A DNA stretch of 64,000 bases from Geodermatophilus ruber (lineage in GTDB: Bacteria > Actinomycetota > Actinomycetes > Mycobacteriales > Geodermatophilaceae), in assembly GCF_900114385.1 (NCBI RefSeq), contig NZ_FOSW01000003.1, forward strand, positions 310,001-374,000, in the 5' to 3' direction. The notes below the pieces were generated by a model that did no database searches, was not told the origin of the DNA, and saw nothing but the letters and a program-made list of their open reading frames with translations. Below are positions 13,860-41,740 of this stretch, piece after piece. The position numbers were made by a program, and so were the translations under genes. Numbering within the stretch: position 1 is the first letter of the stretch; every line of letters begins with the position of its first letter.

Positions 13860-15662
13860 GTGCCGGGCGGCTACTTCGGCCGAGCGCTCCTCGTCGACGT
13901 GACGGGTGGCCGGGCTTCGTCCCTGGCGCTGCCCGAGCCGGTGCTGCGCGGCTACCTCGGTGGCGCCGGGCTGGGCACCTGGCTGCTGCACCGGCTGGCC
14001 CCGGCCAGGGTGGACCCGCTGGCGCCGGAGGCGCCCCTGGCCTTCGTGTTCTCCCCGCTGGTGGGTACCCCCCTGACGACCAGCGCGAAGTTCGCCGTGG
14101 TCGCCAAGTCACCGCTGACGGGGATGCTCAACGACGCGCTGGCCTCCAGCCACTTCGCGATCTCCGGCAAGCTCACCGGGCACGACGCGATCGTGGTGCG
14201 CGGGCGCTGCGCCCGGCCGTCGGTGCTGCTGGTCGACGGCGCCGGCGCCCGCCTCGTGGACGCCGCCGACGTGTGGGGGCTGCCGGCCGCCGACGCCGAG
14301 CGCGAGCTCGTGGCCCGGCTGGGCCGCGGCTGGCGGGTCGCCGCGATCGGCCCGGCCGGGGAACGGGGGGTCCGGTACGCGACCCTCTCCCACGACGGGC
14401 GGCATGCCGGCCGCGGCGGCCTCGGCGCTGTGCTGGGCGCGAAGAACGTCAAGGCGGTGGCGGTCCACGCCGCCACGAAGGTCGCGCCGGCCGACCCGGC
14501 GGCCGTCCTCGCCGCGGCGCGGGACCTGCGGGCCCGGTCCTTCGGCCCGGCCACCGCGAAGTACCGGGAGCTGGGCACGCTGGCCAACCTGCTGACGTTC
14601 AACGCGATCAACACCCTGCCGACCCGCAACTTCACCGCCGCCACCTTCGCCGAGGCGCCCCGGCTCGCCGCGGAGGACCTCGCCGAGATGCGCCGCGTGG
14701 CCCGCAACAGCTGCGCCTCCTGCACGATCGGCTGCGAGCACGTGTACCGGGCCGGCGGCGGGAAGTCGGCCAGGGTCGAGTACGAGAACGTCTTCGCGCT
14801 GGGCCCGCTGTGCGGCGTCTCCGACCCCGACGCCGTGCTCACCGCCAGCGCCCGCTGCGACGAGCTGGGGATCGACACGATCTCCGCCGGCGGCACCGTC
14901 GCCTGGGCGATGGAATGCGCCGAACGGGGTCTGCTGGACGCGCCGTGGCTGCGGTTCGGCGACGGCGCCGCGCTGCTGCGTGCGCTGGACGAGATCGGCC
15001 GGCGCGACGGGCTGGGCGCGCTCCTGGCCGAGGGGTCGCGGCGGGCCGCCGCGGTGGTCGGCCGCGGTTCGGCCGGGTTCGCCCTGCAGGTCAAGGGGCT
15101 GGAGCTGCCCGGCTACGAGCCGCGCACGCTGCAGGCGATGGCGCTCGGGCTGGCCGTGAACGCCCGCGGGGCCGACCACAACCGCTCCGGCGCCTACGAG
15201 GCCGACCTCTCCGGCGATCTGGACCGGTTCGCCGGTGGGGAGGCGCACGTCCGCGCGACCGTCGAGACCGAGGACCGCGCCGCGGTCATGGACTCGCTGA
15301 TCCTCTGCAAGTTCCTGCGCGGGGTCTTCACCGACCCCTTCGCGGAGTGGGCCGGCCTGCTGCGCACGGTCACGGGCTGGGACGTCGACGCCACCGAGCT
15401 GCAGGCCACCGCGCGGCGGATCGTCCTGGCCAAGCGGATGTTCAACCTCCGGGAGGGCTGGACCCCCGCCGACGACTGGCTGCCGGCCCGGCTCCTGGAG
15501 GAGCCGCTGACGCTCCGGTCGGGGCGGGTGGCGAGCCTGTCCCCGGCCACCCTGCGCGCCATGGTCGACGGCTACTGGGCCGCCCGCGGGCTGGACCGGG
15601 ACGGCCGCCCGACCTCGGAGTGCGCCGTCGACCTCCTGCTGACCGAAGCGGTCGCGACCTAG
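13860..15662 (+). CDS. aldehyde:ferredoxin oxidoreductase (AOR) family protein
   Basis: The enzyme has 600 residues from the GTG at 13860 and carries the three AOR domains. The N-terminal domain (GRALLVDVTGG, GGAGLGTWLL, SPLTG) binds the bis-pterin. The [4Fe-4S] ligands are C285, C288 and C292 (CASCTIGC) and C483 (DSLILCKFL). The family normally carries tungsten and oxidises aldehydes to acids, or runs in reverse. AOR is commonest in anaerobes; in Aromatoleum a NAD-linked AOR operon also carries MoaD- and MoeA-like genes, as here. No separate electron-transfer FeS subunit is present, so the NuoEF-like protein downstream may serve both this enzyme and the formate dehydrogenase. Substrate unknown. 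Confidence 0.9.
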   Translation: MPGGYFGRALLVDVTGGRASSLALPEPVLRGYLGGAGLGTWLLHRLAPARVDPLAPEAPLAFVFSPLVGTPLTTSAKFAVVAKSPLTGMLNDALASSHFAISGKLTGHDAIVVRGRCARPSVLLVDGAGARLVDAADVWGLPAADAERELVARLGRGWRVAAIGPAGERGVRYATLSHDGRHAGRGGLGAVLGAKNVKAVAVHAATKVAPADPAAVLAAARDLRARSFGPATAKYRELGTLANLLTFNAINTLPTRNFTAATFAEAPRLAAEDLAEMRRVARNSCASCTIGCEHVYRAGGGKSARVEYENVFALGPLCGVSDPDAVLTASARCDELGIDTISAGGTVAWAMECAERGLLDAPWLRFGDGAALLRALDEIGRRDGLGALLAEGSRRAAAVVGRGSAGFALQVKGLELPGYEPRTLQAMALGLAVNARGADHNRSGAYEADLSGDLDRFAGGEAHVRATVETEDRAAVMDSLILCKFLRGVFTDPFAEWAGLLRTVTGWDVDATELQATARRIVLAKRMFNLREGWTPADDWLPARLLEEPLTLRSGRVASLSPATLRAMVDGYWAARGLDRDGRPTSECAVDLLLTEAVAT

Positions 15663-15676
15663 GGAGAAGGACCGAG

Positions 15677-18535
15677 ATGCTGACCGTGTCGCCCACCGAG
15701 CACCTGACCCGCACCGTCACGCTGACCATCGACGGCCGCGAGGTGACCGTGCCGGAAGGGACGACGATCTGGACGGCGGCGCGCGACGCCGGCATCGACG
15801 TCCCGGTGCTGTGTCACGACGAACGGTTCGACCCCGTGGGGGTGTGCCGGATGTGCGTCGTGGACGTCGGCGGCCGGGCCTACGCCGCCGCGTGCGTCCG
15901 CCCCTGCGAGGACGGCATGACCGTCGCCACCTCCACTCCCGACGTGGAGCGGAGCCGGGCGGTGCTCACCGAGCTGCTCGTGGTCGACCAGCCGCCGCGC
16001 GAGCGGGACCCGAAGCAGACCACGACCGGTGACAACCTGCTGCTCGCGCTGGCCGACCGCTACGGGGTTCCCGCCGACGGCCGGCTGCCGCGCGGCTCCG
16101 GGCGCGGCACCGACCTGTCGAACCCGGTGATCGCCGTCGACCACGACGGCTGCATCCTCTGCGACCGCTGCGTGCGGGCCTGCGACGACATCCAGGGCAA
16201 CGACGTCATCGGACGCAGCGGGAAGGGCTACACCACCCGGATCGCGTTCGACCTGAACGACCCGATGGGCAGCTCCTCCTGCGTCACCTGCGGCGAGTGC
16301 GTCGCCGCCTGCCCCACCGGGGCGCTGACCAACAAGCCGATCCGCGACGTGCCGATCCGGCCGCGCACCGAGCTGGACGCCGTGGACAGCGTCTGCCCCT
16401 ACTGCGGGGTGGGCTGCGCGCTGACCTACTACGTGGACCGGGAGCGCGGCGCCATCGCCTTCGCCGAAGGGCGCGACCAGCCCGGCTCGCAGGGCCGGCT
16501 GTGCGTCAAGGGCCGCTACGGCTGGGACTACGCCGCCTCACCCCAGCGCCTGACGACGCCGCTGATCCGGCGGGAGGACTCCTACCCCAAGGGCCCGCTG
16601 TCGGCGGAGGTGCGCGGCGAGGAGGAGGTCGGGCGCAAGGGCCGCACGGGCCGCAGGCCCGGCGGGCTGGTGCCGATGGAGGAGGTGCTGCCGCACTTCC
16701 GGGAGGCCACCTGGGAGGAGGCGCTGGACCTGGTCGCCCGCCGGCTCACGGCGATCCACGCCGAGGGCGGCCCAGGGGCGATCGCCGGGTTCGGCTCGGC
16801 GAAGTGCTCCAACGAGGAGGCCTACCTCTTCCAGAAGCTGATCCGCACCGGATTCCACACCAACAACGTCGACCACTGCACCCGGCTCTGCCACGCCTCC
16901 AGCGTCGCCGCGCTGTTCGAGGGGATCGGCTCCGGCGCGGTGTCGACCACCTACGGCGACGTCGTCAACGCCGATGTCGCCATCGTCGCGGGCAGCAACG
17001 CCCCGTCCAACCACCCGGTGGCCTCGTCGTTCTTCAAGCAGGCGCAGCGAGCCGGGACGACGATCATCTACGTCGACCCGCGCGCCGACCGGATGTCGGA
17101 GCACGCCGACATCTACTGCCAGCTCAAGCCGGGCACCGACGTCGCGTTCTACAACTCGGTGATGTACGAGGTGATCCGCCTCGGGCTGGTCGACGCCGAC
17201 TACGTCGCGACCCGCACCTCCAACTACGACGCGCTGGCCGCCACGGTCGCCGACTACCCGCCCGAGCGCGGCGAGCAGATCACCGGCGTCCCTGCCGACA
17301 CCATCCGCCGGGTCGCCCGCATCTGGGGCGAGGCCCGTGCCGGCGTCATCTTCTGGGGCATGGGGATCTCCCAGCACACGACCGGTACGGACAACGCCCG
17401 CTGCCTGATCGCGATGTGCGCCATCACCGGCAACGTCGGCAAGCCGGGCAGCGGGCTGCACCCGCTGCGCGGGCAGAACAACGTGCAGGGCGCCTCGGAC
17501 ATGGGCCTGATCCCGATGTTCTACCCGGACTACCAGCGGGCCGCCGAGCCCGCTGTCCACGACCGGTTCGAGCGCGTCTGGGGCGCCGACCTCGACCCGG
17601 AACCCGGGCTGACCGTCACCGAGATCATCTCCTCGGCGCTGAAGGGCGGCGTCCGCGGGATGTACATGATGGGTGAGAACCCGTTCCTGTCCGACCCGAA
17701 CATCAACAAGGTCCGCAAGGCGCTCGCCGCGCTGGACTTCCTGGTCGTGCAGGACATCTTCCTCACCGAGACCGGCGAGTTCGCCGACGTCATCCTCCCG
17801 GCGACCTCGTACCTGGAGAAGGAGGGGACCTACACCAACACCGACCGCCGGGTGCAGCTCGGCCGCAAGGTGCTCGATCCGCCCGGACAGGCGCGCGAGG
17901 ACTGGCGGGTGGTGCAGGACGTCGCCCGGCGGCTCGGCCTGGACTGGGACTACACCTCCCCGCGGGAGATCTTCGACGAGGTCGTCTCGCTCATGCCGAG
18001 CTACCGCAACCTGAGCTACGACAACCTCGGCGGCACCGGCAAGCTCTACCCGAACGACGACCCGGAGCACAGCGACGGCACCGTCGTGATGTTCGACGAG
18101 CGGTTCAACACCAGCGACGGCCTGGCCCATCTCGTGCCGGCCGAGTGGCTGCCGGCCAGGGAGCTGCCCGACGACGAGTACCCGATGGTGCTCAACACCG
18201 GCCGGCTGCTCGAGCACTGGCACACCGGCTCGATGACCCGCCGCTCGTACGCGCTGGACACGATCGCGCCCCGCGCCGAGGTCTACGTCAACCCCGAGGA
18301 CGCGGCGGCGCTGGGCCTGGTCGACGGCGGGATGGCGCGGGTCGCGTCCCGGCGCGGCCGGATCGAGCTGCACGTGAAGGTCTCCCACCGCGAGGCGCGC
18401 GGCAACTGCTTCATCCCCTTCCACTTCCGGGAGGCCGCGGCCAACCTGCTGACCATCGACGAGATCGATCCGTTCGGGAAGATCCCGGAGTTCAAGTTCT
18501 GCGCGGTCCACGTCGAGCCGGTGGAGGGGGCATGA
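15677..18535 (+). CDS. fdhF: formate dehydrogenase alpha subunit (NuoG-like N-terminus)
   Basis: The enzyme has 952 residues; GGAGAAGG precedes the ATG. In order: a [2Fe-2S] ferredoxin domain (CHDERFDPVGVCRMC, AACVRPC), a NuoG-type linker, two [4Fe-4S] clusters (CILCDRCVRAC; CVTCGECVAACPTGAL), the molybdopterin [4Fe-4S] motif CPYCGVGC from residue 240, the bis-MGD catalytic core, and the dinucleotide-binding domain with HWHTGSMTRRS. The metal ligand is probably Cys405 in HCTRLCHA, that is, a cysteine and not selenocysteine form. It oxidises formate to CO2 and hands electrons through its FeS chain to the NuoE-NuoF fusion encoded next (4-base ATGA overlap), giving a soluble NAD-dependent enzyme. 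Other molybdopterin oxidoreductase activity cannot be fully excluded. Confidence 0.93.
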   Translation: MLTVSPTEHLTRTVTLTIDGREVTVPEGTTIWTAARDAGIDVPVLCHDERFDPVGVCRMCVVDVGGRAYAAACVRPCEDGMTVATSTPDVERSRAVLTELLVVDQPPRERDPKQTTTGDNLLLALADRYGVPADGRLPRGSGRGTDLSNPVIAVDHDGCILCDRCVRACDDIQGNDVIGRSGKGYTTRIAFDLNDPMGSSSCVTCGECVAACPTGALTNKPIRDVPIRPRTELDAVDSVCPYCGVGCALTYYVDRERGAIAFAEGRDQPGSQGRLCVKGRYGWDYAASPQRLTTPLIRREDSYPKGPLSAEVRGEEEVGRKGRTGRRPGGLVPMEEVLPHFREATWEEALDLVARRLTAIHAEGGPGAIAGFGSAKCSNEEAYLFQKLIRTGFHTNNVDHCTRLCHASSVAALFEGIGSGAVSTTYGDVVNADVAIVAGSNAPSNHPVASSFFKQAQRAGTTIIYVDPRADRMSEHADIYCQLKPGTDVAFYNSVMYEVIRLGLVDADYVATRTSNYDALAATVADYPPERGEQITGVPADTIRRVARIWGEARAGVIFWGMGISQHTTGTDNARCLIAMCAITGNVGKPGSGLHPLRGQNNVQGASDMGLIPMFYPDYQRAAEPAVHDRFERVWGADLDPEPGLTVTEIISSALKGGVRGMYMMGENPFLSDPNINKVRKALAALDFLVVQDIFLTETGEFADVILPATSYLEKEGTYTNTDRRVQLGRKVLDPPGQAREDWRVVQDVARRLGLDWDYTSPREIFDEVVSLMPSYRNLSYDNLGGTGKLYPNDDPEHSDGTVVMFDERFNTSDGLAHLVPAEWLPARELPDDEYPMVLNTGRLLEHWHTGSMTRRSYALDTIAPRAEVYVNPEDAAALGLVDGGMARVASRRGRIELHVKVSHREARGNCFIPFHFREAAANLLTIDEIDPFGKIPEFKFCAVHVEPVEGA

Positions 18536-24114: not shown

Positions 24115-24726
24115 ATGGGAACGGGTCTGCCGTTCGACAACGTCCTGGCGGCCGCGCAGACGGGAGCCGCGTGGGCGTTCGAGGTTCTCTACCGCGACCT
24201 GTCGCCGGCCGTGACCGGCTACCTGCGTCTGCACGGCGCGCTCGAGCCCGACGACCTGGCCAGCGAGACCTTCGTCGGTGTCTTCACCGGGTTGGCCCGC
24301 TTCCAGGGGGACGAGGCGGCTCTGCGTTCATGGGTATTCACCATCGCCCACCGGCGGCTCATGGACGACTGGCGCCGGCGCAGCCGCCGGCCCCAGCTCG
24401 CCGACCATCCTGATGCGCTGAGCGAAGTGGCTGGCAGCATCGGCGGCGACGTCGAGGACGATGCCCTCGCCCGCGTCGGCGCCGAGAACGTGCACTCGTG
24501 GTGCGCGCAACTGCCAGAGGACCAGCGCACCGTGCTGCTGCTTCGCATCCTGGCCGACCTGACGATCGAGCAGATCGCCGAGGTGATGGAGCGGTCGGCC
24601 GGGGCCGTGAAGGCACTCCAGCGGCGGGGACTTCGCACCCTGCGGGCGCTGCTCGAAGAGGCCTCTCCCGCGGAGGCTGTGAACGGTGCGACGACGGCGG
24701 ACCTCTATCCGGCCGTCGCGCGATGA
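24115..24726 (+). CDS. ECF RNA polymerase sigma factor
   Basis: The protein has 203 residues with GAGGAG 5 bases before the ATG. Sigma region 2 spans about 20-95 (AFEVLYRDLSPAVTGYL, DDLASETFVGVFTGLARF, RSWVFTIAHRRLMDDWRR). Region 4 spans about 130-185 (LPEDQRTVLLLRILADLTIE, QIAEVMERSAGAVKALQRRG). It lacks a region 1 and so is an ECF (group 4) factor that directs RNA polymerase to stress promoters. The next gene starts 10 bases after its stop and encodes a membrane protein, the usual place for an anti-sigma factor. Confidence 0.92.
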   Translation: MGTGLPFDNVLAAAQTGAAWAFEVLYRDLSPAVTGYLRLHGALEPDDLASETFVGVFTGLARFQGDEAALRSWVFTIAHRRLMDDWRRRSRRPQLADHPDALSEVAGSIGGDVEDDALARVGAENVHSWCAQLPEDQRTVLLLRILADLTIEQIAEVMERSAGAVKALQRRGLRTLRALLEEASPAEAVNGATTADLYPAVAR

Positions 24727-24736
24727 CGGGGACGAG

Positions 24737-25606
<870 letters not shown>

Positions 25607-25833
25607 CGCTGTCGCCTCGGTAGCCTCGCCCTTCTGGTCAGCGACAAGGGGCAAGGTCTCGGGCGGCGGCGATGACTGCCCCCGCGCTGCCGCAGCCACA
25701 AGCGCCGGCAGGCCGGAGGCGGCCCTCCGCGTCTCCCTGCTCGACGTCCCCGCTGGGGCGGGAGCGTGGCCCAGCGGGGACAGCGTGACGCGAGAAACTC
25801 CGGCGCCGGCGTACCCCTACACCGGGAGCCGGC

Positions 25834-25960
25834 GATGACCTGGGTGAGATGGCCCCGCCTCGCCTCCCCCGTCGGCCGTTCCGTGCCGCCGGGTGGCAGG
25901 TGGGCGGTGATCTCACCTCTCTTGTGCCGCGTCATGACTTCTTCAGGGGGAAGGCACCCG
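25834..25960 (+). promoter_or_regulatory. structured leader of the DUF5994 gene (leader C)
   Basis: GATGAC (25834-25839) is followed by GGTGAGATGGCCCCGCC. The arm 25843-25850 (GGTGAGAT) pairs perfectly with 25910-25917 (ATCTCACC), with more pairs inside. It ends 43 bases before the ATG. The plan is the same as the leaders of the zinc-ribbon genes at 2920 and 4061. Confidence 0.55.
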
Positions 25961-26518
25961 ATGTCCTGTCCGAACGTCGACGAGCCCCACCAGTGTGGGC
26001 CGAACAACCGCCCGGGCCTGGACGGCGGATTCCGGGCAGGCATCGACGTCCGGGTCAGCCTCCGGGCCGATGCGGGGTGGGGGTCCGCGACGTATGACGG
26101 TGCATGGTGGCCGCGCCGGTACGACCTGGCCGCCGAGTTGCCGGAGCTGATCGCCGAGCTGAGCCGACGGGGCGTCCGGGTCGAGCGGTTCGCGTACTCC
26201 CTGGCGGCCTGGCCACTGCTCCCGCGCAGGATCGCGGTCGCGGACGGGGTGGTCCGCGCCGGTGGCTTCCGCAGCATGGACCCCCAGGTCGTCAGTGTCA
26301 CCTGGGCCGGTGGCTCCCGGCGCGCCGATCTGCTCGTGGTGCCGCCGGAGACCGATGCGCTCACCGGCGCCCGCGCGCTCCGATTGTGCTGCACCCGCCG
26401 AGGCCTCCCCCGCTCGCCACAGATCGTGCTGGCCACTGCTCGGGCGACACCGGCCCCGCAGGTGTCGGTGCCCCATCAGCGGGACAGGCAGCTCTCGCGC
26501 GGGTTCGCGACGAGCTGA
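25961..26518 (+). CDS. DUF5994 family protein
   Basis: The product has 185 residues from the ATG at 25961, preceded by AGGGGGAAGG. After a Cys-containing opening (MSCPNVDEPHQCGP) the body is a DUF5994 domain: RVSLRADAG, YDGAWWPRRYDLAAELPELI, FAYSLAAWPLLPRRI, GGFRSMDPQVVSVTWAGG, ADLLVVPPETDALTGARAL. DUF5994 proteins are common in actinobacteria and have no established function. The first nine bases and the structured leader are those of the small zinc-ribbon genes 20 kb away, so the leader plus 'MSC' start seems to have been grafted onto this unrelated gene. Downstream is a perfect palindrome that probably ends transcription. Confidence 0.8.
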   Translation: MSCPNVDEPHQCGPNNRPGLDGGFRAGIDVRVSLRADAGWGSATYDGAWWPRRYDLAAELPELIAELSRRGVRVERFAYSLAAWPLLPRRIAVADGVVRAGGFRSMDPQVVSVTWAGGSRRADLLVVPPETDALTGARALRLCCTRRGLPRSPQIVLATARATPAPQVSVPHQRDRQLSRGFATS

Positions 26519-27103
26519 GCTCGGCATCCGCCGGTGTACACGGGGTGGCGATTGCCACGACCGCGACGGCCGTGGCCGGCGCCGCGGCCCTCGAGATCCC
26601 GATACAGGTACTCATGAGCGGTCGCCGGTGAGAGGACCGGGCGGTCGAGCACGGATCGACACCGCGGCGCCGTCCCACGGCGACTTCGCCCGGTGCCGCC
26701 ATGACACCGTAGGAACTGGCCGCCGCGAGGGCGGAGCAACGCCGCCACCGGGTTGACGGGTCCCGCCCGCAGGGCCTCGTCACCGTGCGGTCTCTGCCGG
26801 AGCCGTGCCGCGGCCGCGGCACGGCTCCGGCCGGGGCCAACGAGCTGGCCAGTCCGCTCCGGGCGCAGCCTGGCGATTGCCTGTCTCATCGGACGACTCC
26901 CACCAGACCGGTCTCTCACCTCCCGGCCGCGTCGGGCCTGCAGCCGCCGCGTCCACTCCCCCACTCCCGGGGTTCGGCGGAGGAGTTGCCGACCGCGGCC
27001 GGCCGCGCAGTGCCATCCATAGCGCCCGCCCGCCATGGGTGAGGTGTAGCCCGCACGTCGGCCACGGAACGTGAACGGATCGGGATGCGGGGGCGGTCGT
27101 AGG
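26519..27103. other. convergent intergenic region
   Basis: No supported gene. It separates the plus-strand DUF5994 gene from a small minus-strand gene and contains a perfect palindrome at 26796-26831. Confidence 0.4.
26796..26831. terminator. perfect 36-bp palindrome, likely bidirectional terminator
   Basis: Positions 26796-26813 and 26814-26831 are exact reverse complements with no spacer (18 bp per arm, GC-only core). It lies between two convergent genes, where a hairpin terminator serving both strands would be expected. No T-run follows, as is common in actinobacteria. Confidence 0.55.
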
Positions 27104-27289
27104 TCAGGTGGTCGGGGCGACGCCGATCGACTTCGCGGCAGGCCGGGCGGACATGGTCCGCGCCTGCTGCTCTCTCTCGTAACGATCCGTCGACACGGTG
27201 CCCAGGACGACGACGAAGGCCGTCAGTACCAGGAATCCGATCAAGGCCAGGGCCGGCCACAACATCAAGTGTTCGCTCTCCTCATCCAT
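27104..27289 (-). CDS. small single-pass membrane protein
   Basis: The product has 61 residues starting MDEESEHLMLW. One membrane helix (about 10-32, WPALALIGFLVLTAFVVVLG) is followed by a charged tail (STDRYEREQQARTMSARP). Length and layout are those of many unnamed actinobacterial small membrane proteins. A longer frame to 27400 would add 37 non-conserved residues, so the ATG at 27289 is preferred. No partner gene is adjacent. Confidence 0.6.
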   Translation of the reverse strand: MDEESEHLMLWPALALIGFLVLTAFVVVLGTVSTDRYEREQQARTMSARPAAKSIGVAPTT

Positions 27290-27751
27290 CGGGCGTGGAC
27301 CTGTCCGCGAGTGGTCGATACGGACGGCCGGCCGCGTACATGAACGCGACCCACACACGTCATCGCCGCCGACCGGCGTAGGGGTACCGGCCACGAACAC
27401 CTTCCTCTGTCGAGGGGCGAACCCGCAGAACAGCTCCGGCAGCCGCCCGCCGAATTCGACGGCCGCGTCCAGCAGAGCGAGCTTCCCGGCAGCTCCGTCA
27501 CCGCCGGCTGAGAACCCTTCCGGCCGCCGATTGGCCCAACGACGCCGGCCTGTCGCCTGCCGGCTGCCGGCTGCCGTGGAACGGGCGGCGCGGACGATGA
27601 CGAGAGCCGCAGAATCACGTAGGACCCGGTCGTCTGACCAGGCCCTCCGTGGTTGAGCTGCGGGTTCTCCCGAGCGCCGGATTCGGGGAAACGAATCCGG
27701 CTTTTCGGGACGAACCCCGACGCAGTGCGCCGGGGGTGTGCGGCGTCGTGC
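27290..27751. other. intergenic region
   Basis: No supported gene. Minus-strand frame 27265-27618 is composition-driven. Confidence 0.3.
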
Positions 27752-29416
27752 TCATCGCCGGGCGGGGGTGGGCAGCAGGCCCTCCTGGTGGTCGATTTCC
27801 CGCTCCAGCACCCGCAGGCCCGAGTCGGGCAGCTGGCCGACGTCTCGCAGGTGCACCAATCTCTCGCGCTCGGCGTCGAGGACGGCTCGCTGCGCCCGCA
27901 CCCCCGCCTCGTAGTGCGGGTTGAACGGGACCCCGTCCGAGGAGTTCGCCAGCACGTCCAACCGCTGCCGGTATTTGCGCAGCCGGCTCTCCAGCTGGTT
28001 GCGGAGGGCGTTGATCATCTGCCTGTCGACCGGGTCGTGGTCCTCCCGCTCCAGCTCGTCCAGCTGCTCGAGCCCGGCCTGCGCGGCTTCTGCGCGCGCC
28101 CGGTTCTGCAGCCGGGCCTGGTCGGCGGCGTTGGCGTGCAGGCCGAGTGCGCGGACGAGCGGCGCGAACGTCAGCCCCTGGCCGACGAGCGTGACCAGCA
28201 CGACGAGATAGGTGCAGAACAGCAGGAGGTCGCGCAGCGGGAACGGGGCGCCGCTCTCCGTGGTCATCGGCAGCGTCGAGATCGCCGCCAGGCTGATGAC
28301 TCCCCGTGTCCCGGCCCAGCTCAGCACGACCAGCTCACGGCCGGAGAACCGCTCGACGGCCCGGTCGCGGCTGTCCTCGGGGCGGTCCGCGGTGTCGCCG
28401 TCCGCGCGGCCGAGGCGGGTGTGCAGGGACTGCGGCAGCAGCAGCGTGAGCACCAGCCAGAGCGGACGGACCAGCAGGACGACGCCGACGGTGAGGAGGG
28501 AGGCGAGCACGACCGTCGAGATGTCGTACTGGCCCAACCCGGCCACGACCGCCGGCAGTTGCATGCCGATGAGCAGGAAGACGAACCCCTCGAGGAGAAA
28601 GTCGACCAGCCGCCAGACCGCGTCGACCTGCAGCCGGCTGGCACCGGACACCCTGCGGGGGGTGTCGTGGCCGATGACCAGTCCGGCCACCACCACGGCC
28701 AGCACCCCGGAGACGTGCAGCGCCTCGCCCAGCAGGTAGGCCCCGAACGGGGTCACCAGGGAGACCGCGTTCAGCGTCAGCGGGTCCTGCCACAGGCGGC
28801 GGATCCCGCGGACGGCGGTGGCCACCAGGAGCCCGACCGCGACGCCGCCGACGGAGGCCAGGACGAACTGGAGCGCGGTGGCGCCGGGAGAGAAGGATCC
28901 ACTGGTGGCCGCGGCGACCGCGACCGAGAGGAGGGTCAGCGCGGTGGCGTCGTTGAGCAGGCCCTCACCCTGGATCAGGGTGAGCAGCCGGGGCGGCAGC
29001 CCGACCCGGCGTCCCACCGCCAGTGCGGCCACCGGATCGGGCGGGGCGATCGCGGCGCCGAGCGCGACGCCCACGGCCAGGGTGGCCCCCGGGACCAGCA
29101 GGTCGAAGCTCACGCCGACCGCCAGCGCGCTGACGAGCACGAGCAGCACCGACAGGCTGATCACCGTGCCCAGGTTGCGGCGGATCGCCACCAGCGAGGA
29201 GTCCAGCGCCGCGCTGTACAGCAACGGCGGGATGACCACCGTCAGGATCAGGTGGGGATCGAGGACCATGTGCGGTCCGGGGATGAACGCGTACCCGATG
29301 CCGACCAGGGTCTTCAGTGCCGCGGCGGGCAGCCCCGTCCGCTCGGAGATCCGGTGGATCACCACGATCACGACAACCGTGGCGAGCACCAACAGCACCG
29401 TCGATTCGCCGTCCAC
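27752..29416 (-). CDS. Na+/H+ antiporter, CPA1 family
   Basis: The protein has 554 residues from the GTG at 29416. It has about a dozen membrane segments. Family motifs are the ion-binding region GAAIAPPDPVAALAVGRRVG with the paired acidic/hydrophobic site, GEGLLNDATALTLLSVAVA, and RELVVLSWAGTRGVISLAA in the second half. A cytoplasmic helical tail of about 120 residues (RAEAAQAGLEQLDELERED, LRKYRQRLDVL) follows the membrane domain. It exchanges cytoplasmic sodium (or potassium) for protons and so controls pH and salt balance. It is divergent from the SpoIIE phosphatase gene, with only 114 bases between them. Confidence 0.92.
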   Translation of the reverse strand: MDGESTVLLVLATVVVIVVIHRISERTGLPAAALKTLVGIGYAFIPGPHMVLDPHLILTVVIPPLLYSAALDSSLVAIRRNLGTVISLSVLLVLVSALAVGVSFDLLVPGATLAVGVALGAAIAPPDPVAALAVGRRVGLPPRLLTLIQGEGLLNDATALTLLSVAVAAATSGSFSPGATALQFVLASVGGVAVGLLVATAVRGIRRLWQDPLTLNAVSLVTPFGAYLLGEALHVSGVLAVVVAGLVIGHDTPRRVSGASRLQVDAVWRLVDFLLEGFVFLLIGMQLPAVVAGLGQYDISTVVLASLLTVGVVLLVRPLWLVLTLLLPQSLHTRLGRADGDTADRPEDSRDRAVERFSGRELVVLSWAGTRGVISLAAISTLPMTTESGAPFPLRDLLLFCTYLVVLVTLVGQGLTFAPLVRALGLHANAADQARLQNRARAEAAQAGLEQLDELEREDHDPVDRQMINALRNQLESRLRKYRQRLDVLANSSDGVPFNPHYEAGVRAQRAVLDAERERLVHLRDVGQLPDSGLRVLEREIDHQEGLLPTPARR

Positions 29417-29530
29417 GGCGTCAGTCTCGTCCGAGTGCCGGGCGGGCTCAGGTCGGGAGCCGGCCGACCACCGGCCGGATCGATGTGAGTTACCGGACCT
29501 TGCCCTCGCACGCCTCCTCGTGAAGAGTCG

Positions 29531-30898
29531 ATGAGCCGCGATCGGCGCGGACCGACCGGTTGGGCAGTGATGACGCAGCACGATGCACAGATCGACCGTG
29601 ACCTCCGCGGCCCGGAGGACGACGCGCTGACCGGTCTGGGGTTCGCCGACCCGGGCGGCAGAACCCGCGGCGAGAGCCTGGGCGAGCGCCTGCTGGGGTC
29701 CCTCCTCGACCGTGCGCACCTCATGCCACCGCGGCTGGTGGGCCCGCTGGTCGCCCAGGAGATCGCCGAGATGGGCGGGCGCGACGTCTCGATCTACCTG
29801 CAGGACTTCGACCACGCGACCCTGCGCCCGCTCCAGGGGCCGGGGCTGGTCGGTGAGGCGGAGCTGATCGACGACAGCCCCGCGGGTACCGCCTTCCGCA
29901 CCGACGAACGGTGCGAGGTGCATCAGGCCGACGGCAGCGTGCGGCTCTTCGTCCCGATGCTCGACGGCTCCGACCGCGTCGGCGTGCTCGCGCTGACCCT
30001 GCCGGAGGTCGACGACAACGACCGCCGGCTGGCCCAGCGCCTCGCCGGCCTGACCGCCGACCTGGTGGTGACCAAGTCCGGGTACACCGACACGTTCGCC
30101 CGCACCCGCATGACGGCCCCGATGAGCCTGTCGGCGCACCTGCAGTGGCAGATGCTGCCGCCGCTGGTGATGACCACCCCCGACGTCGCCCTCGCCGGGG
30201 CGCTGGAACCGGCCTACGAGGTCGGCGGGGACAGCTTCGACTACGCCCTCGAGGACCAGACGCTGCACCTCGCGGTGTTCGACGCCATGGGCCACGGCGT
30301 CGAGGCGGCCATCATGGCCACCCTGATGATCGCCGCCTACCGGCACGGCCGGATCAACGGCAGCGCGCTTCCCGAGATGTACCGGGAGATGGACGGCGTC
30401 ATGGCGTCCTCGTTCCCCGGACGGTTCGCCACCGCGATGCTCGGCAAGCTCGACACCGTCACGGGCGAGCTGACCTGGATCAACGCCGGTCACCCCAGCG
30501 GCCTGCTCATCCGCGACGGCCGCGTGGTCGACGAGCTGAGCGGCCCCATCACCCGGCCGGTCGGGTTCGGGCACGCCGCGCCGCACGTCCACGCGGCACA
30601 GTTGCGCCCCGGCGACCGCGTCCTCTTCTTCACCGACGGCGTCGTCGAGGAGCGGGTGGCCGGCGGCGGCCAGTTCGGCGAGCAGCGGTTGCGGCAGTTC
30701 ATCGAGGCGAACGCCCTGGAGCAGCTGCCCCCGGCGGAATCGGTCCGCTTGCTCTCGCACGCGCTGCTGAAGGGCCGCGGCGGGCGCACCAGCGACGACG
30801 CGTCGCTGCTCATGGTCGAGTGGAGCGGACCGCCCCGGGACGACGAGCTGGCACGCGGCATCCCTGGCGGGGTGCCGGCAGGGACGGTGCTCGCCTGA
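29531..30898 (+). CDS. GAF-SpoIIE PP2C-type serine phosphatase
   Basis: The protein has 455 residues. A GAF-like N-terminal sensor (about 60-180, DVSIYLQDFDHATLRPLQG, VRLFVPMLDGSDRVGVLALT) precedes a SpoIIE domain (about 210-435). That domain carries the metal-binding acidic motifs EVGGDSFDYAL, VFDAMGHGVEAAIMATL, INAGHPSGLLI, DRVLFFTDGVVEER and GRTSDDASLLMV. Such phosphatases act on anti-anti-sigma factors in partner-switching stress circuits. ATG at 29570 (MTQHDAQ) is an alternative start. An RsbW-like ATPase is encoded 240 bases downstream. No anti-anti-sigma gene is in the window. Confidence 0.9.
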   Translation: MSRDRRGPTGWAVMTQHDAQIDRDLRGPEDDALTGLGFADPGGRTRGESLGERLLGSLLDRAHLMPPRLVGPLVAQEIAEMGGRDVSIYLQDFDHATLRPLQGPGLVGEAELIDDSPAGTAFRTDERCEVHQADGSVRLFVPMLDGSDRVGVLALTLPEVDDNDRRLAQRLAGLTADLVVTKSGYTDTFARTRMTAPMSLSAHLQWQMLPPLVMTTPDVALAGALEPAYEVGGDSFDYALEDQTLHLAVFDAMGHGVEAAIMATLMIAAYRHGRINGSALPEMYREMDGVMASSFPGRFATAMLGKLDTVTGELTWINAGHPSGLLIRDGRVVDELSGPITRPVGFGHAAPHVHAAQLRPGDRVLFFTDGVVEERVAGGGQFGEQRLRQFIEANALEQLPPAESVRLLSHALLKGRGGRTSDDASLLMVEWSGPPRDDELARGIPGGVPAGTVLA

Positions 30899-31138
30899 CG
30901 TCGCGCTGCGCGGTAGCCCGGCGCCTGGTTGGGTGAGGCGGCCAGACGCCCACTCCCCACACCTCTCGTCCTGCTCGTGCGCTCTTCCCATCGCGTCGCC
31001 CCGGCGCCCATCGCAGGAATTCGAGGACTCCGGCCGTGCACATGACGCCTCCCTCCGGCGCCTCCCGTGGTTGAGGGCTTCCGGGTACCGACGCCCCGTG
31101 TCCCCCGGCAGTCCCCCGACCGCTGGGCCGGCGGCCAC

Positions 31139-31549
31139 ATGCCGCACGCCTACGACTGCTGGACCTGGGAGCTGAGGACGCTCGGGGACCTGCCCGGTGT
31201 GCGGGCCGCCGTCCGGCGGCACCTCGCCGACGACGACGTGCGGCCCACCCCGCCGGACAGCGAGGCGGCCGAGCGCTTGGTGCTGGCGCTGGACGAGCTG
31301 GCCTCCAACGGGCTGCGCCACGGCCGCTTGCCCGTCGGGCTGCGGGTGTGCCCGCTGCCCGACCACTGGCTGGTCGACGTCATGGACGCGGCCGTCGGCG
31401 CCCCGCCCTCGCCCGATCCGGGCCGCCCCGCCGGCCAGGGCGGGTACGGCCTGTTCGTCATTGCGGCGTACGCCACGGGCTACGGCTGGGTGGCCGAGCA
31501 CGAGTGCAAGCACGTCTGGGCGCTGCTCCCCCGCGTCGTCGTACGCTGA
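31139..31549 (+). CDS. ATP-binding anti-sigma/RsbW-like HATPase
   Basis: The product has 136 residues from the ATG at 31139 (GTG at 31067 would add 24 non-conserved residues). It is an HATPase_c fold of the serine-kinase type: LVLALDELASNGLRHG (N box, Glu-Asn), VDVMDAAVG (D box, degenerate), GQGGYGLFVIAAYATGYGW (G box). These proteins bind ATP and either sequester a sigma factor or phosphorylate an anti-anti-sigma factor. Its position behind the SpoIIE phosphatase suggests opposing functions in one circuit. The D box lacks the usual DxGxG, so kinase activity is uncertain. Confidence 0.85.
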   Translation: MPHAYDCWTWELRTLGDLPGVRAAVRRHLADDDVRPTPPDSEAAERLVLALDELASNGLRHGRLPVGLRVCPLPDHWLVDVMDAAVGAPPSPDPGRPAGQGGYGLFVIAAYATGYGWVAEHECKHVWALLPRVVVR

Positions 31550-31733: not shown

Positions 31734-33380
31734 CTAACTCCGCGGCCGGCGGCGGGCAGGCGACCGAGTCCTGGCTGTGGGAGCACGGTCGGGGAACTGG
31801 CCGGTGAGGACGAGCTGCTCGGCCAGGACGCGCACCTTCACGTTGGCCGCCATCGACTCCTCGCTGAGCGCCCGGAAGGCCTGCTCGGCGGTCAGCTTGC
31901 CCCGTTCCATCAGGATGCCCTTGGCCTGCTCGATCACCGCCCGGGACGTCAGCGCGGTTCGCAGGTTCTCGACCTGGTTCCGGGCGCCACGGTAGGCGGA
32001 GGCGCTCCCTGCTGCGGCGGCCGCGAAGTCGGCGACGCGGGCGGCTGCCGCCCGACCGGCGGAGCCGAAGACCTGCGGCCCGGTCGCGTAGATGTTCAGT
32101 GATCCGGTGACCGGCCCGTCGGCGTCGATGACGAGCGGCACGGACAGGACGGACAGCGCGCCGTGCCCGGTGGCGCTCCGGGCGTACGCCGGCCAGCGGG
32201 GCTCTGTGCGGCTGTCGGGGATCTCGGTCGGCTCACCGGAGCGGGCCGCGTGCAGGCAGGGGCCGTCGTCCTGCTCGTACTGGCAGGCGTCGAGCTCGAG
32301 GGCGAGCTGTCCGGTGCTGGCCACGGTGGTCGCCTGGTTCTCGACCAGCAGGGTCACCGACACCTCGGCAGCTCCGGGTACCGACGTCTTCGCCAGGTCC
32401 GCGGCGGTGCCCAGCAGCCGCGGCAGGGACTGCTCCAGGACCGGTCGCCCGGGGAGGCGCCCCGGTGGGACGGCCACGTTCGGGTAGGAGCGGTTCGCGC
32501 CGGGCAGCGCCCGCCGGAAGGCGGTGAGGAAGGCGCGGCCCGCTGCTCCGCGCAGCGCCTCGTCCCGGTAGACGATGCCCAGCTCCCACAGGGGCGCGTC
32601 GGCCAGCGTCGCGACGTCGACCCGGCCGAAGACCTCACTGTTGGCACTCGACGCGGGGCCGTAGGAGATGCCCATGCCCTGGTGCACCAGGGCGAGGACG
32701 CCGAGCCAGGTATCGACCTCGAGCCGGATCTCCCGCTGCAGTCCGTGCTCGGCCAGCAGAGAGTCGAACAGCTGGCGCGCGAGCTGTGCCCGGGGCAGGT
32801 CGATGACGGCTTCGCCGATGAGCTCCCGAGGATGCACGTCGCGCGCGCCGGCCAGCCGGTGACCTGCGGGGCAGAGGACGACGAGCTGGTCGTGGACCAG
32901 CGGGTCGAAGCGGAGTGTGGACCCTGGGCGGTCGGTTCGGGGGGCGAGGGCGAAGTCGACCTGCCCGCTGGCCACCAGGTCCGGGGCGGTTCTCGCATCG
33001 GCCGGGAGCAATCGGACCTGCACGCCTGGGTGCTCCTGGTGGAAGCCGCGCAGCGTCTGGACCACGTCGATGATGCGCGGGGGGACCACGAAGGCGACGC
33101 GGACCGTGCCGCGCAGCAGGCCCTCGACCTCCGCTACGGCGTCCCGCGCACGTCCTGCCTGCTCGACCATCGCCCGCGCCGGCGCGAGGAAGGCCCGGCC
33201 GGCGTCGGTCAGCTCGGCGCCCCGGCGGCCGCGGATGAACAAGGTCGTGCCCAGGTCGCGTTCGAGGGCCAGCAACGAGGCCGACAGGCTCGACTGCACC
33301 ATGTAGACCCGTGCCGCGGCGGCGGTGAACGACCCCTCCTCCACCACGCTGAGAAAGTGCTCGAGCTGCCTCAACTCCAC
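31734..33380 (-). CDS. LysR-type regulator fused to GAF and ANTAR domains
   Basis: A 548-residue unbroken frame. Residues 1-60 are a LysR winged helix (VELRQLEHFLSVVEEGSFTA, SSLSASLLALERDLG, FIRGRRGAELTDAGRAFL). About 90-290 is a LysR effector domain (VRVAFVVPPRIIDVV, DLVASGQVDFALAPRTDRPG, GMGISYGPAS). A GAF domain follows at about 310-450 (LALELDACQYEQDDGPCLHA, ALSVLSVPLVI). An ANTAR RNA-binding domain lies at about 460-525 (ALTSRAVIEQAKGILMERGK, AFRALSEESMAANVKVRVLA). GAF-ANTAR proteins act as antiterminators; LysR proteins act at promoters. I know no common protein that joins them. GTG at 33380 gives the normal LysR start; GTG at 33419 adds 13 residues. Confidence 0.85.
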   Translation of the reverse strand: MELRQLEHFLSVVEEGSFTAAAARVYMVQSSLSASLLALERDLGTTLFIRGRRGAELTDAGRAFLAPARAMVEQAGRARDAVAEVEGLLRGTVRVAFVVPPRIIDVVQTLRGFHQEHPGVQVRLLPADARTAPDLVASGQVDFALAPRTDRPGSTLRFDPLVHDQLVVLCPAGHRLAGARDVHPRELIGEAVIDLPRAQLARQLFDSLLAEHGLQREIRLEVDTWLGVLALVHQGMGISYGPASSANSEVFGRVDVATLADAPLWELGIVYRDEALRGAAGRAFLTAFRRALPGANRSYPNVAVPPGRLPGRPVLEQSLPRLLGTAADLAKTSVPGAAEVSVTLLVENQATTVASTGQLALELDACQYEQDDGPCLHAARSGEPTEIPDSRTEPRWPAYARSATGHGALSVLSVPLVIDADGPVTGSLNIYATGPQVFGSAGRAAAARVADFAAAAAGSASAYRGARNQVENLRTALTSRAVIEQAKGILMERGKLTAEQAFRALSEESMAANVKVRVLAEQLVLTGQFPDRAPTARTRSPARRRPRS

Positions 33381-33474
33381 CTGATTAGATGCACATTCCG
33401 GGGACGGCAGAGCAATCACGGGTATCCACTGGTCGCCATCGTCGTAGACGATGGATGGGCGCCGCCACCGCTGC

Positions 33475-34686
33475 TCAGTCCAGCCGCAGCCGTCCGTCGA
33501 CCACGTCGCGGGCGACCTCGGTGAGCGTCCGGTCGATCACGAACGCACGGGCCCGGATTGCGCTGAGCGCACCGTCGATGGTGAGCCCCAGCTGCGCCGA
33601 GACGATCCCGGCGGCGAGCGACACCTCGCGGTAGGAGCCGGTCGTGCCATCCGGGACGAGCAGCTCGGTGTCGATCCGGTCGAGGTCGGCGAGCACGGCC
33701 ACCCCGGCCAGGTCGGCGAGCACCGCGGCGTCGATCCACTCGTCGGGGCCGGCGGGCTCCGGGGCGCGGCGGTACATCGTCAGCGTGCCGAGGACGGTGC
33801 CGGCGACGGAGAGAGGAAACGCCCACACGCCGGTGAGCCCGGCGGTCGCGGGCGTCCTCGCGAAGCCGGGCCAGCGGCCTCGCTCCGTGGCGACGTCGTA
33901 GAAGACCGGCGCCCGATCGGTGAGGGCGGTGAACGTGGGGCCCTCGCCGAGGGTGGACTGCAGCTCCTCGAGGGCCGCCGTCCACCGGTCGGTCGTCGCC
34001 AGGGATTCCTGCAGGCCGTCGCCGAGGCACGCCGTGACCGCCGCCCCGTCGACTCCCGCCAGGTTCGTCACGACGGCGCGGCACAGCGCATGGGACCAGC
34101 CACGCCAGGCGCGGTCGCTGACGCGGTCGCAGACGGCCTCCCACAGCTGCCGACGTCGCACGACGGCAGGAGAGGCGCCAGCCGGCCCTCGCGCCACGAC
34201 CAGCGCCGTCAGTGCCTCGCGCAGTCGCGCGGCCGCCACGGCTGCCCCCGGTGCCGGGCAGGGCGCAGTGAGCTGTGCCAGCGCGGTGATGTCCTGGGCG
34301 TGGTGCAGGATTCCCGTCACCCGGTCTCGTTCGTCCAGGACGGGGATGTTCACCGGACTCCAGGTCCGCTCGACGAACAGTCCCGAGCCCCGGACCGGCT
34401 CGACGTCGTACCGCTGCACCTGCATGGTGTGCGGTCGCGCCGAGCGCAGCACGTGGGTCAGGGACGCGGTCAGGTTGCGCACCCCGTGCGCCGCCGGGGT
34501 GTCGGGGTTGTCGGGGAACGCCTCGACGAGGACCTCGCCGAGCAGCGCCGTGCGGTCCCGCCCGCTGGTGGCCAGATAGGCGTCGTTGACCGCCCGAATC
34601 CGAAGGTTGACGTCGAGCAGCACGTAAGCGGCGGACCCATCGAGGAACTCCGGCCTCTCGGCCATGGCCCTCAACGCGTGGTGCAC
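33475..34686 (-). CDS. PAS-GAF-ANTAR-type regulator
   Basis: The protein has 403 residues. The GTG at 34686 is chosen because GGAGGAGG lies 5 bases before it. A PAS domain (about 15-140, FLDGSAAYVLLDVNLRIRAV, GILHHAQDITALAQL) is followed by a GAF domain (about 190-335, DGAAVTACLGDGLQESLATT, GEGPTFTALTDRAPVF, GVWAFPLSVAGTVLGTLTMY). A C-terminal ANTAR-like unit follows (YREVSLAAGIVSAQLGLTID, GALSAIRARAFVIDRTLTEV). The ANTAR part is divergent: it has AAGIVSAQLG where classical members have QAKGIL. Its gene ends 95 bases before the LysR-GAF-ANTAR gene begins, in the same direction, so the two may be co-regulated. Confidence 0.8.
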   Translation of the reverse strand: MHHALRAMAERPEFLDGSAAYVLLDVNLRIRAVNDAYLATSGRDRTALLGEVLVEAFPDNPDTPAAHGVRNLTASLTHVLRSARPHTMQVQRYDVEPVRGSGLFVERTWSPVNIPVLDERDRVTGILHHAQDITALAQLTAPCPAPGAAVAAARLREALTALVVARGPAGASPAVVRRRQLWEAVCDRVSDRAWRGWSHALCRAVVTNLAGVDGAAVTACLGDGLQESLATTDRWTAALEELQSTLGEGPTFTALTDRAPVFYDVATERGRWPGFARTPATAGLTGVWAFPLSVAGTVLGTLTMYRRAPEPAGPDEWIDAAVLADLAGVAVLADLDRIDTELLVPDGTTGSYREVSLAAGIVSAQLGLTIDGALSAIRARAFVIDRTLTEVARDVVDGRLRLD

Positions 34687-34835
34687 GGCGACCTCCTCCA
34701 AGCACGGCGCGCGGACCGGCCCATCCCGGGAGGTGGGTGGGTCGGTGGCGGCGAGAGTATGCAGCACGCTGCTCCCGGCGGGCGAGCCCCTGCGCGTCAG
34801 CCCGGCGGATCCTCCGCTGCGGGTGGGGGCCGGAC

Positions 34836-36009: not shown

Positions 36010-36975
36010 GGTCAGGAGTGCCGCGAGCGAGGCGTCGGAGGCGGCGAGCGCCGCGCGATCGTAGGTGGCGCCGCTGGCGAGCAGTTCGTCCGCGCCGGTG
36101 CGATCGACGAGCTGCTCGAGCCGGCGACGCACCGTCGCCGGCCCACCGGCCGTGACGGCGTCGAGGCCGCGCGCCACCCGATCGGCGTCCTGGTCGTCCC
36201 AGCGCTGGTGGCGGATGGACGCGACCGGCTCGAGGGAGTCGAAGACGCCGGTGCGGCGCGAGCGGACCATCGCCCACACCTCCGGCAGGGCCAGCTCACG
36301 GCCCTCCGCATCGGTGTCGGCGACCAGCACGTCGACCGAGACGGTGACATGGGGCCGGCTGCCCCGGTGGGGGCGGAATTCGCGGCGGTAGGCAGCGAGC
36401 AGGTCACCGAGGTCGGGCCGGGTAAGCACCGGACCGCCCAGCACGACCGGAAGCCCCAGCCGAGCGGCGACCTGGATCCCGCGTCCGGTGGCGAGCACGA
36501 AGAGCGGGAGGGGCTCGTCCACCAGCGGGCGCGCGGTGACCGGCGCGGTCCGCTCGAGGTAGCCCCGGACCTCGGCGAGGTCGTCGGCGAACGAATCCGG
36601 CGCGTCATCGGGACGGCGCAGCGCACGGCGAACAGGTGCGGTGAAGCCGAGTGAGCGGCCCAGTCCGATGTCGACCCTGCCCGGGTGGAGAGCCGCCAGC
36701 ATCAGGAACTGCTCGGCCACGACGAGTGGCTGGTGGTGGGGCAGCATCACTCCGCCCGATCCGAGCCGGATCGCCGCCGTGCGCGCCCCGATCGCCGCAA
36801 GCAGCACCGCCGGCGCTCCGGACGCGATGCCCGGGACGCCGTGGTGCTCGGCCACCCAGAACCGGGAGTAGCCCAGCCGCTCCGCCGCGACCGCCCGCTC
36901 CACGGTGTGCGTCAGGGCAGCCCCCTCCGGCTGGCCGGTGCGGGTGCGGGATCGGTCGAGCAGCGAGAGCCTCAC
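36007..36975 (-). CDS. LLM-class flavin-dependent oxidoreductase (luciferase-like)
   Basis: The protein has 322 residues from the GTG at 36975 (VRLSLLDRSRTRTG). It is a luciferase-like TIM barrel: FWVAEHHGVPGIASGAPAVL, IRLGSGGVMLPHHQPLVVAE, PGRVDIGLGRSLGF, LGLPVVLGGPVL. A TTG four codons upstream is an alternative start. Members use reduced FMN or F420 to oxidise diverse small molecules; this one resembles the MsnO8-type group. It is transcribed away from the ABC1 kinase gene. Substrate unknown. Confidence 0.88.
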   Translation of the reverse strand: MRLSLLDRSRTRTGQPEGAALTHTVERAVAAERLGYSRFWVAEHHGVPGIASGAPAVLLAAIGARTAAIRLGSGGVMLPHHQPLVVAEQFLMLAALHPGRVDIGLGRSLGFTAPVRRALRRPDDAPDSFADDLAEVRGYLERTAPVTARPLVDEPLPLFVLATGRGIQVAARLGLPVVLGGPVLTRPDLGDLLAAYRREFRPHRGSRPHVTVSVDVLVADTDAEGRELALPEVWAMVRSRRTGVFDSLEPVASIRHQRWDDQDADRVARGLDAVTAGGPATVRRRLEQLVDRTGADELLASGATYDRAALAASDASLAALLT

Positions 36976-40738: not shown

Positions 40739-41740
40739 TCAGTGGCTGATCAGGTTGGAGCGGCTGCGGTCGTGCCGGGTCTCGATCACACGGACTGCGC
40801 CGGATCTCGACCGCATGGACAACGACTCGGTGACCACCGAGTTCTCCCCGAAACGGACACCGTGCAGCAGCGCGCCGTCGGTGACGCCGGTGGCACCGAA
40901 GAACACGTCGTCGCCGGAGACGAGGTCCCGGGTGGTGAGGATGCGGTCCAGGTCGTGGCCGAAGTCCAGAGCGGCCCGTCGCTCCCCCTCGTCGCGGGGC
41001 TGCAGCCGGCCGAAGATCTCCCCGTCGCTGCACCGCAGCGCGCACGCCGCGATCACCCCCTCCGGCGTGCCGCCGACGCCGACCAGCAGGTCCACCGCCG
41101 AGCCGGGTTGACCGACGGCGATGGCGCCGGCGACGTCGCCGTCGAGCAGGGACCTGACCGCGGCACCGGCCCGGCGGATCTCGGCCACCAGGTGGTCGTG
41201 CCGCGGCCGGTCCAGCACGGCGACCGTGAGGTCCTCCTGCCGCTTGCCCAGCGCGCGGGCCAGCGTCGCGAGGATGTCTGCGATCGGCGCCTCGGGGTCG
41301 ACCGAGCCGGCGGCGGCGCCGGGCACGACCAGCTTGTGCATGTACACGCACGGCCCCGGGTCGAACATCGTGCCCCGCTCGGCCAGTCCCACGACCGCGA
41401 CCGCGTCGGGCAGCCCCTTGGCGGCGGCGGTGGTGCCGTCCACCGGGTCGACGGCGATGTCGACCTCGGGGTCCGAGCCGTTCCCGACCTGCTCGCCGTT
41501 GAACAGCATCGGGGCCTCGTCCTTCTCCCCCTCGCCGATGACCACGACGCCGCGCATCCCGATCGAGCCCAGCACCGGCCGCATCGCGTCCACCGCAGCC
41601 CCGTCGACCTGGTTCTTGTCCCCGCGGCCGACGTAGCGTGCCGCGGAGATGGCGGCGGCCTCGGTGGCGCGGACCAGCTCCAGCGCCAGGTTGCGATCCG
41701 GGTCGAGCGCCGTGCCGGAGGCGAGACCGGCGCCGGTCAT
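40739..41740 (-). CDS. glpX: class II fructose-1,6-bisphosphatase
   Basis: The enzyme has 333 residues. Metal and substrate sites are visible: [80 protein letters not shown]. It removes the 1-phosphate from fructose-1,6-bisphosphate in gluconeogenesis, so growth on glycerol is coupled to sugar synthesis. Its ATG overlaps the glpK stop by 4 bases (ATGA), meaning coupled translation. Actinobacteria normally depend on GlpX as their main FBPase; whether a second copy exists elsewhere cannot be seen here. Confidence 0.95.

Follow-up and report, generated by a model that had tools for sequence, protein, structure and literature searches.

A LysR-GAF-ANTAR gene and its surroundings

We analysed a 64,000-nucleotide stretch of the Geodermatophilus ruber genome (hereafter, the window; contig NZ_FOSW01000003.1, positions 310,001 to 374,000). 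On its minus strand, an open reading frame without internal stops (33380-31734) encodes a protein of 548 amino acids with a computed mass of 58.4 kDa. The program-made frame begins farther upstream, at 33419; we placed the start codon at the GTG at 33380, which matches the start conserved among relatives (M/V-ELRQ). Pfam identified four domains in the product: a LysR winged helix-turn-helix (HTH_1, residues 3-62, 33195-33374, 69.1 bits against a cut-off of 26.6), a LysR effector-binding domain (LysR_substrate, residues 87-292, 32505-33122, 123.5 bits, cut-off 28), a GAF domain (GAF_2, residues 317-456, 32013-32432, 46.2 bits, cut-off 28.6) and an ANTAR domain (residues 471-524, 31809-31970, 70.7 bits, cut-off 27.3). 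Judged by these scores, chance matches are excluded for all four. The frame and the four above-threshold domains bear out the proposal of the initial annotation that a complete LysR regulator, a GAF sensor and an ANTAR domain form one continuous chain. Third-codon-position GC content was 0.87-0.97 in all 12 segments (60 codons or fewer) of the gene, and because it is steady along the gene, we read both halves and the join as coding.

Few bacterial DNA-binding regulators are as common as LysR proteins, which are typically about 300 residues long and almost always have just the two LysR domains, an arrangement that is usual, not obligatory. ANTAR proteins act on RNA after initiation. With 548 amino acids and added GAF and ANTAR domains, the fused protein departs from the usual LysR plan. 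Its best NCBIfam matches were LysR regulators, such as CynR (122.7 bits versus a cut-off of 277), and because all of them fell below their equivalog cut-offs, a specific LysR function cannot be named.

An AlphaFold2 model based on a 30-row alignment (mean pLDDT 80.9, pTM 0.44) showed a LysR fold, an unstructured linker (residues 295-317), a confident GAF domain and the ANTAR helices. The sensor domain precedes ANTAR, and one continuous long helix (residues 439-494, 31899-32066) runs from the former into the latter. The alignment misplaced distant LysR rows after residue ~196, and the C-terminal half of the LysR part is less sure. No fixed contact between the two halves was predicted; two bodies linked by a flexible tether would be in keeping with the low pTM, which a thin alignment could also cause.

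The 50 Foldseek matches listed were all LysR structures of the full-length type (CbnR, OxyR, CcmR, BenM and others), with no match to the second half among them. Using phmmer, we matched the ANTAR structures 6wsh, 6hmj and 4akk with E values below 0.01 and 1qo0 and 1s8n at 0.19; all five share the ANTAR core with the fused protein. These are the nitrate regulatory protein NasR (4akk), AmiR (1qo0), Rv1626 (1s8n) and, presumably, PAL (6hmj) and EutV (6wsh, whose numbering we take to be shifted by 2). Partner domains in solved ANTAR proteins are receiver, NIT or PAS/LOV domains, and we know of no DNA-binding partner domain in those proteins. PMC8934654 gives some of these partner domains, and it lists R142, K143, K147, E160, Y164, M172, N173, R175 and R177 as RNA contacts of EutV. 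In the 6wsh alignment (offset 2), the corresponding residues of the fused protein are R, A, Q, A, F, M, A, N and K, respectively, each matching the commonest residue of the standalone subfamily except at the variable position N173. As far as that contact list goes, the differences from EutV neither prove nor exclude RNA binding.

Directly upstream and in the same direction lies a gene (33475-34767, minus strand) that had been annotated as PAS-GAF-ANTAR. Its PAS_4 (35.6 bits, cut-off 23.1) and GAF (29.5 bits, just passing the cut-off of 28.6) domains stood, whereas its ANTAR-like C terminus stayed below the cut-off of 27.3, with 16.3 bits and, in a whole-genome ANTAR search, 19.6 bits. We matched this neighbour in one of the 26 genus genomes, its own (E<=1e-40). 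On the other side are genes for a sigma-70-type factor (24115-24726) and, by Pfam, a sodium/proton antiporter (27752-29443), a SpoIIE-type phosphatase with a sub-threshold GAF match (29531-30898) and an RsbW-like ATPase domain (31067-31549). Lying beside the ANTAR genes, this segment (24115-31549) resembles, we infer, a partner-switching stress cluster.

We compared the window frames touching 18000-50000 with 17 standalone GAF-ANTAR regions of the genus and two from the same genome (tblastn, E<=1e-12). No flank was consistent across the 19 regions: SpoIIE-phosphatase-like matches (35-43% identity) appeared in two, RsbW-like matches in four and a PAS-GAF-like match (37%) in one. A GAF-ANTAR gene lies about 230-1,350 bases from an RsbW-like ATPase gene in five loci (own-genome C27, L183; G005 C367, L179; G003 C9, L178; G007 C2, L180; and G022 C1, L031), possibly a recurring pair. 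Elsewhere in the window, a molybdopterin oxidoreductase frame (14273-18535) spans 1,420 codons, the first ~480 of which carry no listed Pfam domain, possibly through an overlong start call.

Origins of the two halves and their junction

The gene is a lineage-specific fusion, seen in one species and in one genome. We found no second full-length fusion, the window's gene standing alone, in 26 genus genomes (E<=1e-60), in 112 family genomes (1e-75, up to 12 candidates scored per genome) or in 397 order, 394 class and 396 phylum genomes (1e-80, 1e-55 and 1e-38, respectively, up to three candidates scored per genome), samples that overlap and that remote or independent LysR-ANTAR fusions could escape. 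The two halves did not occur together in the best 80 of 499 relatives from a genome contig search. When we tested 108 GAF-ANTAR and 74 LysR frames, copies of the window's gene were the only frames of at least 100 amino acids to match both halves (E<=1e-8), and in a plasmid search no place covered 80% of the query. Two candidates were rejected: a Telmatospirillum match given as residues 1-405 (L089), which is a plain LysR gene of 308 codons, and plasmid match H1, in which a LysR gene adjoins another gene. The initial annotation knew of no described protein of this kind; the open-licence PMC literature, judged largely from titles and the starts of abstracts, yielded no LysR-ANTAR combination and did not contradict this. 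As far as those searches go, the joining of LysR to GAF-ANTAR is new, the families and the GAF-ANTAR arrangement being known.

The nearest match of the LysR half in its own genome is a standalone LysR gene (66% identity over residues 1-294); in a 28-row tree the two were also sisters, with moderate support (88/87) that falls below the tree program's mark of 95/80. Its branch measured 0.40, against 0.20 for its sister. The subfamily is patchy, with matches in 14 of the 112 family genomes, its own included (E<=1e-75). At this threshold, genomes G058, G095 and G098 (95, 70 and 80% complete) held 4, 5 and 5 matches, respectively, and the LysR neighbours scanned there (L049, L038 and L051) differ in kind. 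We found no conserved target gene beside the LysR relatives among ten neighbours of eight loci (a hydrolase, an MFS, a flavohaemoglobin-like, two TetR, a kinase, a TauE, two receiver-HD and an EAL gene).

The DNA-binding end is well kept: 49-59 of the 65 N-terminal residues were identical to those of 26 of the 27 standalone relatives (the outlier, L060, had 36/65). Of 111 columns conserved at 90% or more, the LysR half departed at 4, which is also the median; at a looser 70% level, it departed at 32 of 195 columns (median 19.5), with 5 of 28 rows, itself included, departing at as many. Two near-fixed positions of the effector domain are altered, W199Q and G198A. Counted from the conserved start, 22 of 28 standalone LysR rows (L063 and L037 being identical) are 293-308 amino acids long, so that most of them end near the fused protein's entry into the linker; five others are 313-335 amino acids long, and L055 is open to 508 amino acids, with no GAF-ANTAR match. 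The fused gene has the helix-turn-helix, effector domain, conserved start and T-N11-A-type palindrome in common with LysR-type regulators (BenM, CbnR and CcmR; standalone L002, L037 and L038). By contrast, the fused gene lacks a stop after the LysR domain and carries GAF-ANTAR.

For the second half, standalone GAF-ANTAR matches were present in 17 of the 25 other genus genomes (E<=1e-60), and the nearest 24 standalone rows were 54-60% identical over residues 316-528. It grouped with the genus's standalone subfamily (support 93/90) in a 47-row tree that includes an anomalous frame (L065 at 1903, branch 7.08); the fused row, whose branch of 0.97 compares with a median of 0.21 for end branches, was flagged as long, and its placement was marked as unsure by the program. 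The fused gene is the genome's sole member of this subfamily, the next GAF-ANTAR of the genome being 40% identical.

All ten columns invariant in 99 aligned relatives are retained, in the GAF domain (Q367, G373-P374-C375 and R395) as in the ANTAR domain (R480, A486, G488, A501 and A520). On this alignment, the RNA half has lost none of the residues that are invariant in the family. Of 66 conserved columns, the GAF-ANTAR half differed at 7; the median across 100 rows was 6, and 42 rows differed at as many or more. Mean identity to 25 subfamily members was 0.58 for the GAF domain, 0.44 for the helix and 0.60 for the ANTAR domain, versus 0.72, 0.70 and 0.70, respectively, among the members themselves. 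Actinobacterial GAF-ANTARs (the genus subfamily, for example L011, L014 and L023) share with it the Q-G-P-C motif of the GAF domain, the long helix and the R-x-x-I-x-Q-A-K-G core of ANTAR; unlike the fused protein, those of the genus are standalone with their own start, and a same-frame LysR was absent in all loci tested.

The genome has nine ANTAR matches, eight of them above the cut-off. Six other above-cut-off frames, scanned with Pfam, had a receiver, a histidine kinase with a receiver, PAS, GAF (two frames) or no named domain as partner, and never LysR; the seventh (L188, the same place as L004) had no LysR match. The histidine kinase frame (L189; G000:C16, ~42153) combines HisKA, HATPase, Response_reg and ANTAR and is cut at the locus edge.

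The junction and linker (residues 295-317, 32430-32498, minus strand), which we delimited by the ends and starts of standalone relatives, had a pLDDT below 50. Within it, the GTG-GCC at Val302 (32477-32475) may be what is left of the GAF-ANTAR start codon. Of 26 standalone GAF-ANTAR rows, 22 have GGAGG ahead of the likely start codon, GTG or ATG (a 23rd pattern match, in L026, lies away from the likely start and was not counted), and no GGAGG stands before the GTG-GCC-GTC at Val302. Standalone GAF-ANTARs also have about 20 residues before a shared G-R-L, most of which are absent from the fused protein. Because the usual ribosome-binding site is missing, the GAF-ANTAR half probably has no separate product and is made solely as part of the fusion. 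We rejected two internal starts: GTG 302 has no GGAGG, and GTG 340, although preceded by CGGAG, would truncate the GAF domain. The junction is most simply read as the scar of a deletion that brought together a LysR gene and a GAF-ANTAR gene downstream of it and that would have removed the LysR stop along with the second gene's initiation signals. None of the 19 regions compared had LysR and GAF-ANTAR genes side by side, as in such an ancestral arrangement.

The predicted operator and the search for RNA targets

A T-N11-A dyad is the LysR-type rule for regulated promoters. An exact palindrome of this type, CCATCG-N7-CGATGG (33436-33454), lies 74 to 56 nt upstream of the fused gene's GTG start and is conserved upstream of standalone LysR relatives. 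It falls after the neighbour's stop and before the conserved start, although the fused gene's stop-to-stop frame extends across it. Among 29 close LysR relatives, of which the window counts as one, the box was present within 150 nt exactly in 8, with up to one mismatch in 12 and with up to two mismatches in 19, where shuffles expected 0.00, 0.05 and 0.58, respectively; the pattern had been defined after inspection of the same upstream regions. Nine of the 29 had no box within three mismatches, and the LysR paralogue in the same genome had one with two mismatches only. In 37 distant relatives, we found no box that was exact or had a single mismatch, and two with up to two mismatches (0.00 exact and 0.46 with up to two expected).

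These counts cover 66 upstream regions from 74 LysR frames. Left out were L063 (the same as L037), frames whose match started after residue 3 and upstream stretches shorter than 100 nt; the window copies L001, L143 and L144 were entered once, as the window. At the two-LysR loci L044 and L052, the second gene replaced the first and was counted as distant; the first LysR copy of L044, outside the count, carries an exact box. The boxes with up to two mismatches in L059, L058 and L010 overlap the ribosome-binding site at -22; these three are unlikely to be operators. The palindrome occurs upstream of L027, L038, L039, L040, L042, L050 and L051, in the Geodermatophilaceae LysR subfamily.

Conservation extended beyond the box itself: in the columns that follow it, the window agreed at 14 of 17 conserved positions, against a shuffle mean of 4.8, and none of 2000 shuffles reached 14. 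The whole genome contained the exact box at three places and, with up to one mismatch, at 29; the reversed pattern, which is a weak control in DNA of high GC content, matched at 8. The other two exact boxes appear to lie inside genes, one in an SMC-like frame (judged by eye) and one in another coding-like frame. A longer box pattern with two mismatches matched all 108 family genomes and was uninformative.

Because the LysR promoter has been kept, with an exact box upstream, we predict that the fused gene retained LysR-type autoregulation, for which the box provides good comparative evidence. The conserved LysR-type box before the gene lends the DNA-binding half better support than the initial annotation knew when it proposed control of initiation. 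Independently of the fusion, CCATCG-N7-CGATGG is a testable operator prediction for the Geodermatophilaceae LysR subfamily.

On the RNA side, an Rfam gathering search of the window gave no match, Rfam's coverage of ANTAR target families being uncertain. A simple scan of the window for tandem hexaloop hairpins gave four hits for the minus strand, where 0.4 were expected, and none for the plus strand, with 0.3 expected; none was at or near the fused gene. Minus-strand candidates at 36125-36187, 41428-41465 and 5276-5321 may be chance occurrences in GC-rich DNA.

A possible DNA-bound, RNA-acting regulator

With about even confidence, we favour a species-specific fusion in which one copy of a LysR autoregulator of the Geodermatophilaceae, together with its promoter and operator, was joined in frame to a GAF-ANTAR gene, giving a DNA-bound, signal-sensing and RNA-acting chain. 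The LysR half would bind the CCATCG-N7-CGATGG box and control its own synthesis. The GAF half, with the Cys375 that is invariant in 99 aligned relatives, would sense a ligand or redox state, and the signal would pass along the single long helix and switch the ANTAR domain, as thought for ordinary GAF-ANTAR proteins; ANTAR would then act on target transcripts. Dimerisation of one half may assist the other. LysR proteins are dimers of dimers. According to PMC3369931, ANTAR domains function as dimers and GAF domains can dimerise; because all three dimerise, the fusion would be compatible in stoichiometry. Actinobacterial ANTAR systems may affect translation besides termination (PMC8164766).

The initial annotation had suggested that initiation and elongation could be controlled from one polypeptide. 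Because the ANTAR domain appears intact at its invariant positions, initiation and post-initiation control from one chain is possible, and dual DNA and RNA control by the fused protein is plausible. A further step is doubtful but conceivable: a LysR oligomer held at promoters by its helix-turn-helix might offer the nascent transcript ANTAR dimers under signal control; one protein would then pick promoters and go on to decide on completion or translation, its own gene first. Several observations count against the fusion as a working regulator of both DNA and RNA, namely the long branches of both halves, the 32 departures of the LysR half at the 70% level, the lack of any ANTAR target RNA in the Rfam and hexaloop searches of the window, the nine close relatives with no box, the two-mismatch box of the paralogue, the lack of a predicted fixed contact between the halves, and the occurrence of the fusion in a single genome, with no second case to indicate that selection keeps it.

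The intact LysR promoter and box would also suit promoter capture, in which GAF-ANTAR does the RNA work and the LysR half, its response to an effector perhaps lost, serves mainly to supply an autoregulated promoter and a means of dimerising. The W199Q and G198A changes point in this direction, as does the standing of the fused gene as the genome's one member of its GAF-ANTAR subfamily. However, standalone relatives preserve the LysR helix-turn-helix and the 90%-conserved columns no better than the fused protein does, and the longer branch belongs to the GAF-ANTAR half; we consider this reading unlikely.

Alternatively, a sensor could have been added to a LysR regulator, with the GAF domain tuning DNA binding in response to its signal and ANTAR, lacking any RNA to act on, left as a helical end that is vestigial or only dimerises. 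The strong divergence of the GAF-ANTAR helix and the empty Rfam and hexaloop searches at this locus are consistent with such an arrangement. Yet R480, Q485, A486, G488, F502, M510, N513 and K515 are as in the standalone subfamily, and ANTAR scores as high as 70.7 bits, which makes this account quite unlikely in our view.

We see a slim chance that the fusion is recent, near-neutral and decaying, with no joint function. Its restriction to one genome and the long branches of both halves would fit; however, divergence has been ample for decay to show (66% identity to the paralogue), yet the frame is open, and the most strongly conserved columns and the promoter are retained. An assembly or sequencing artefact that joined two genes is highly improbable: this is one draft assembly of 32 contigs, judged from the assembled sequence, but the join lies well within a 523-kb contig, the frame and codon pattern continue across it, a DNA search of the genome found no long repeat there able to mislead an assembler (the best other match of the fused gene, the LysR paralogue at 76% identity, ends at residue 289), and the genome holds no near-identical separate copy of either half.

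A natural chain of LysR and ANTAR whose own promoter carries a predicted operator offers a directly testable case for physically coupling promoter choice and transcript fate.
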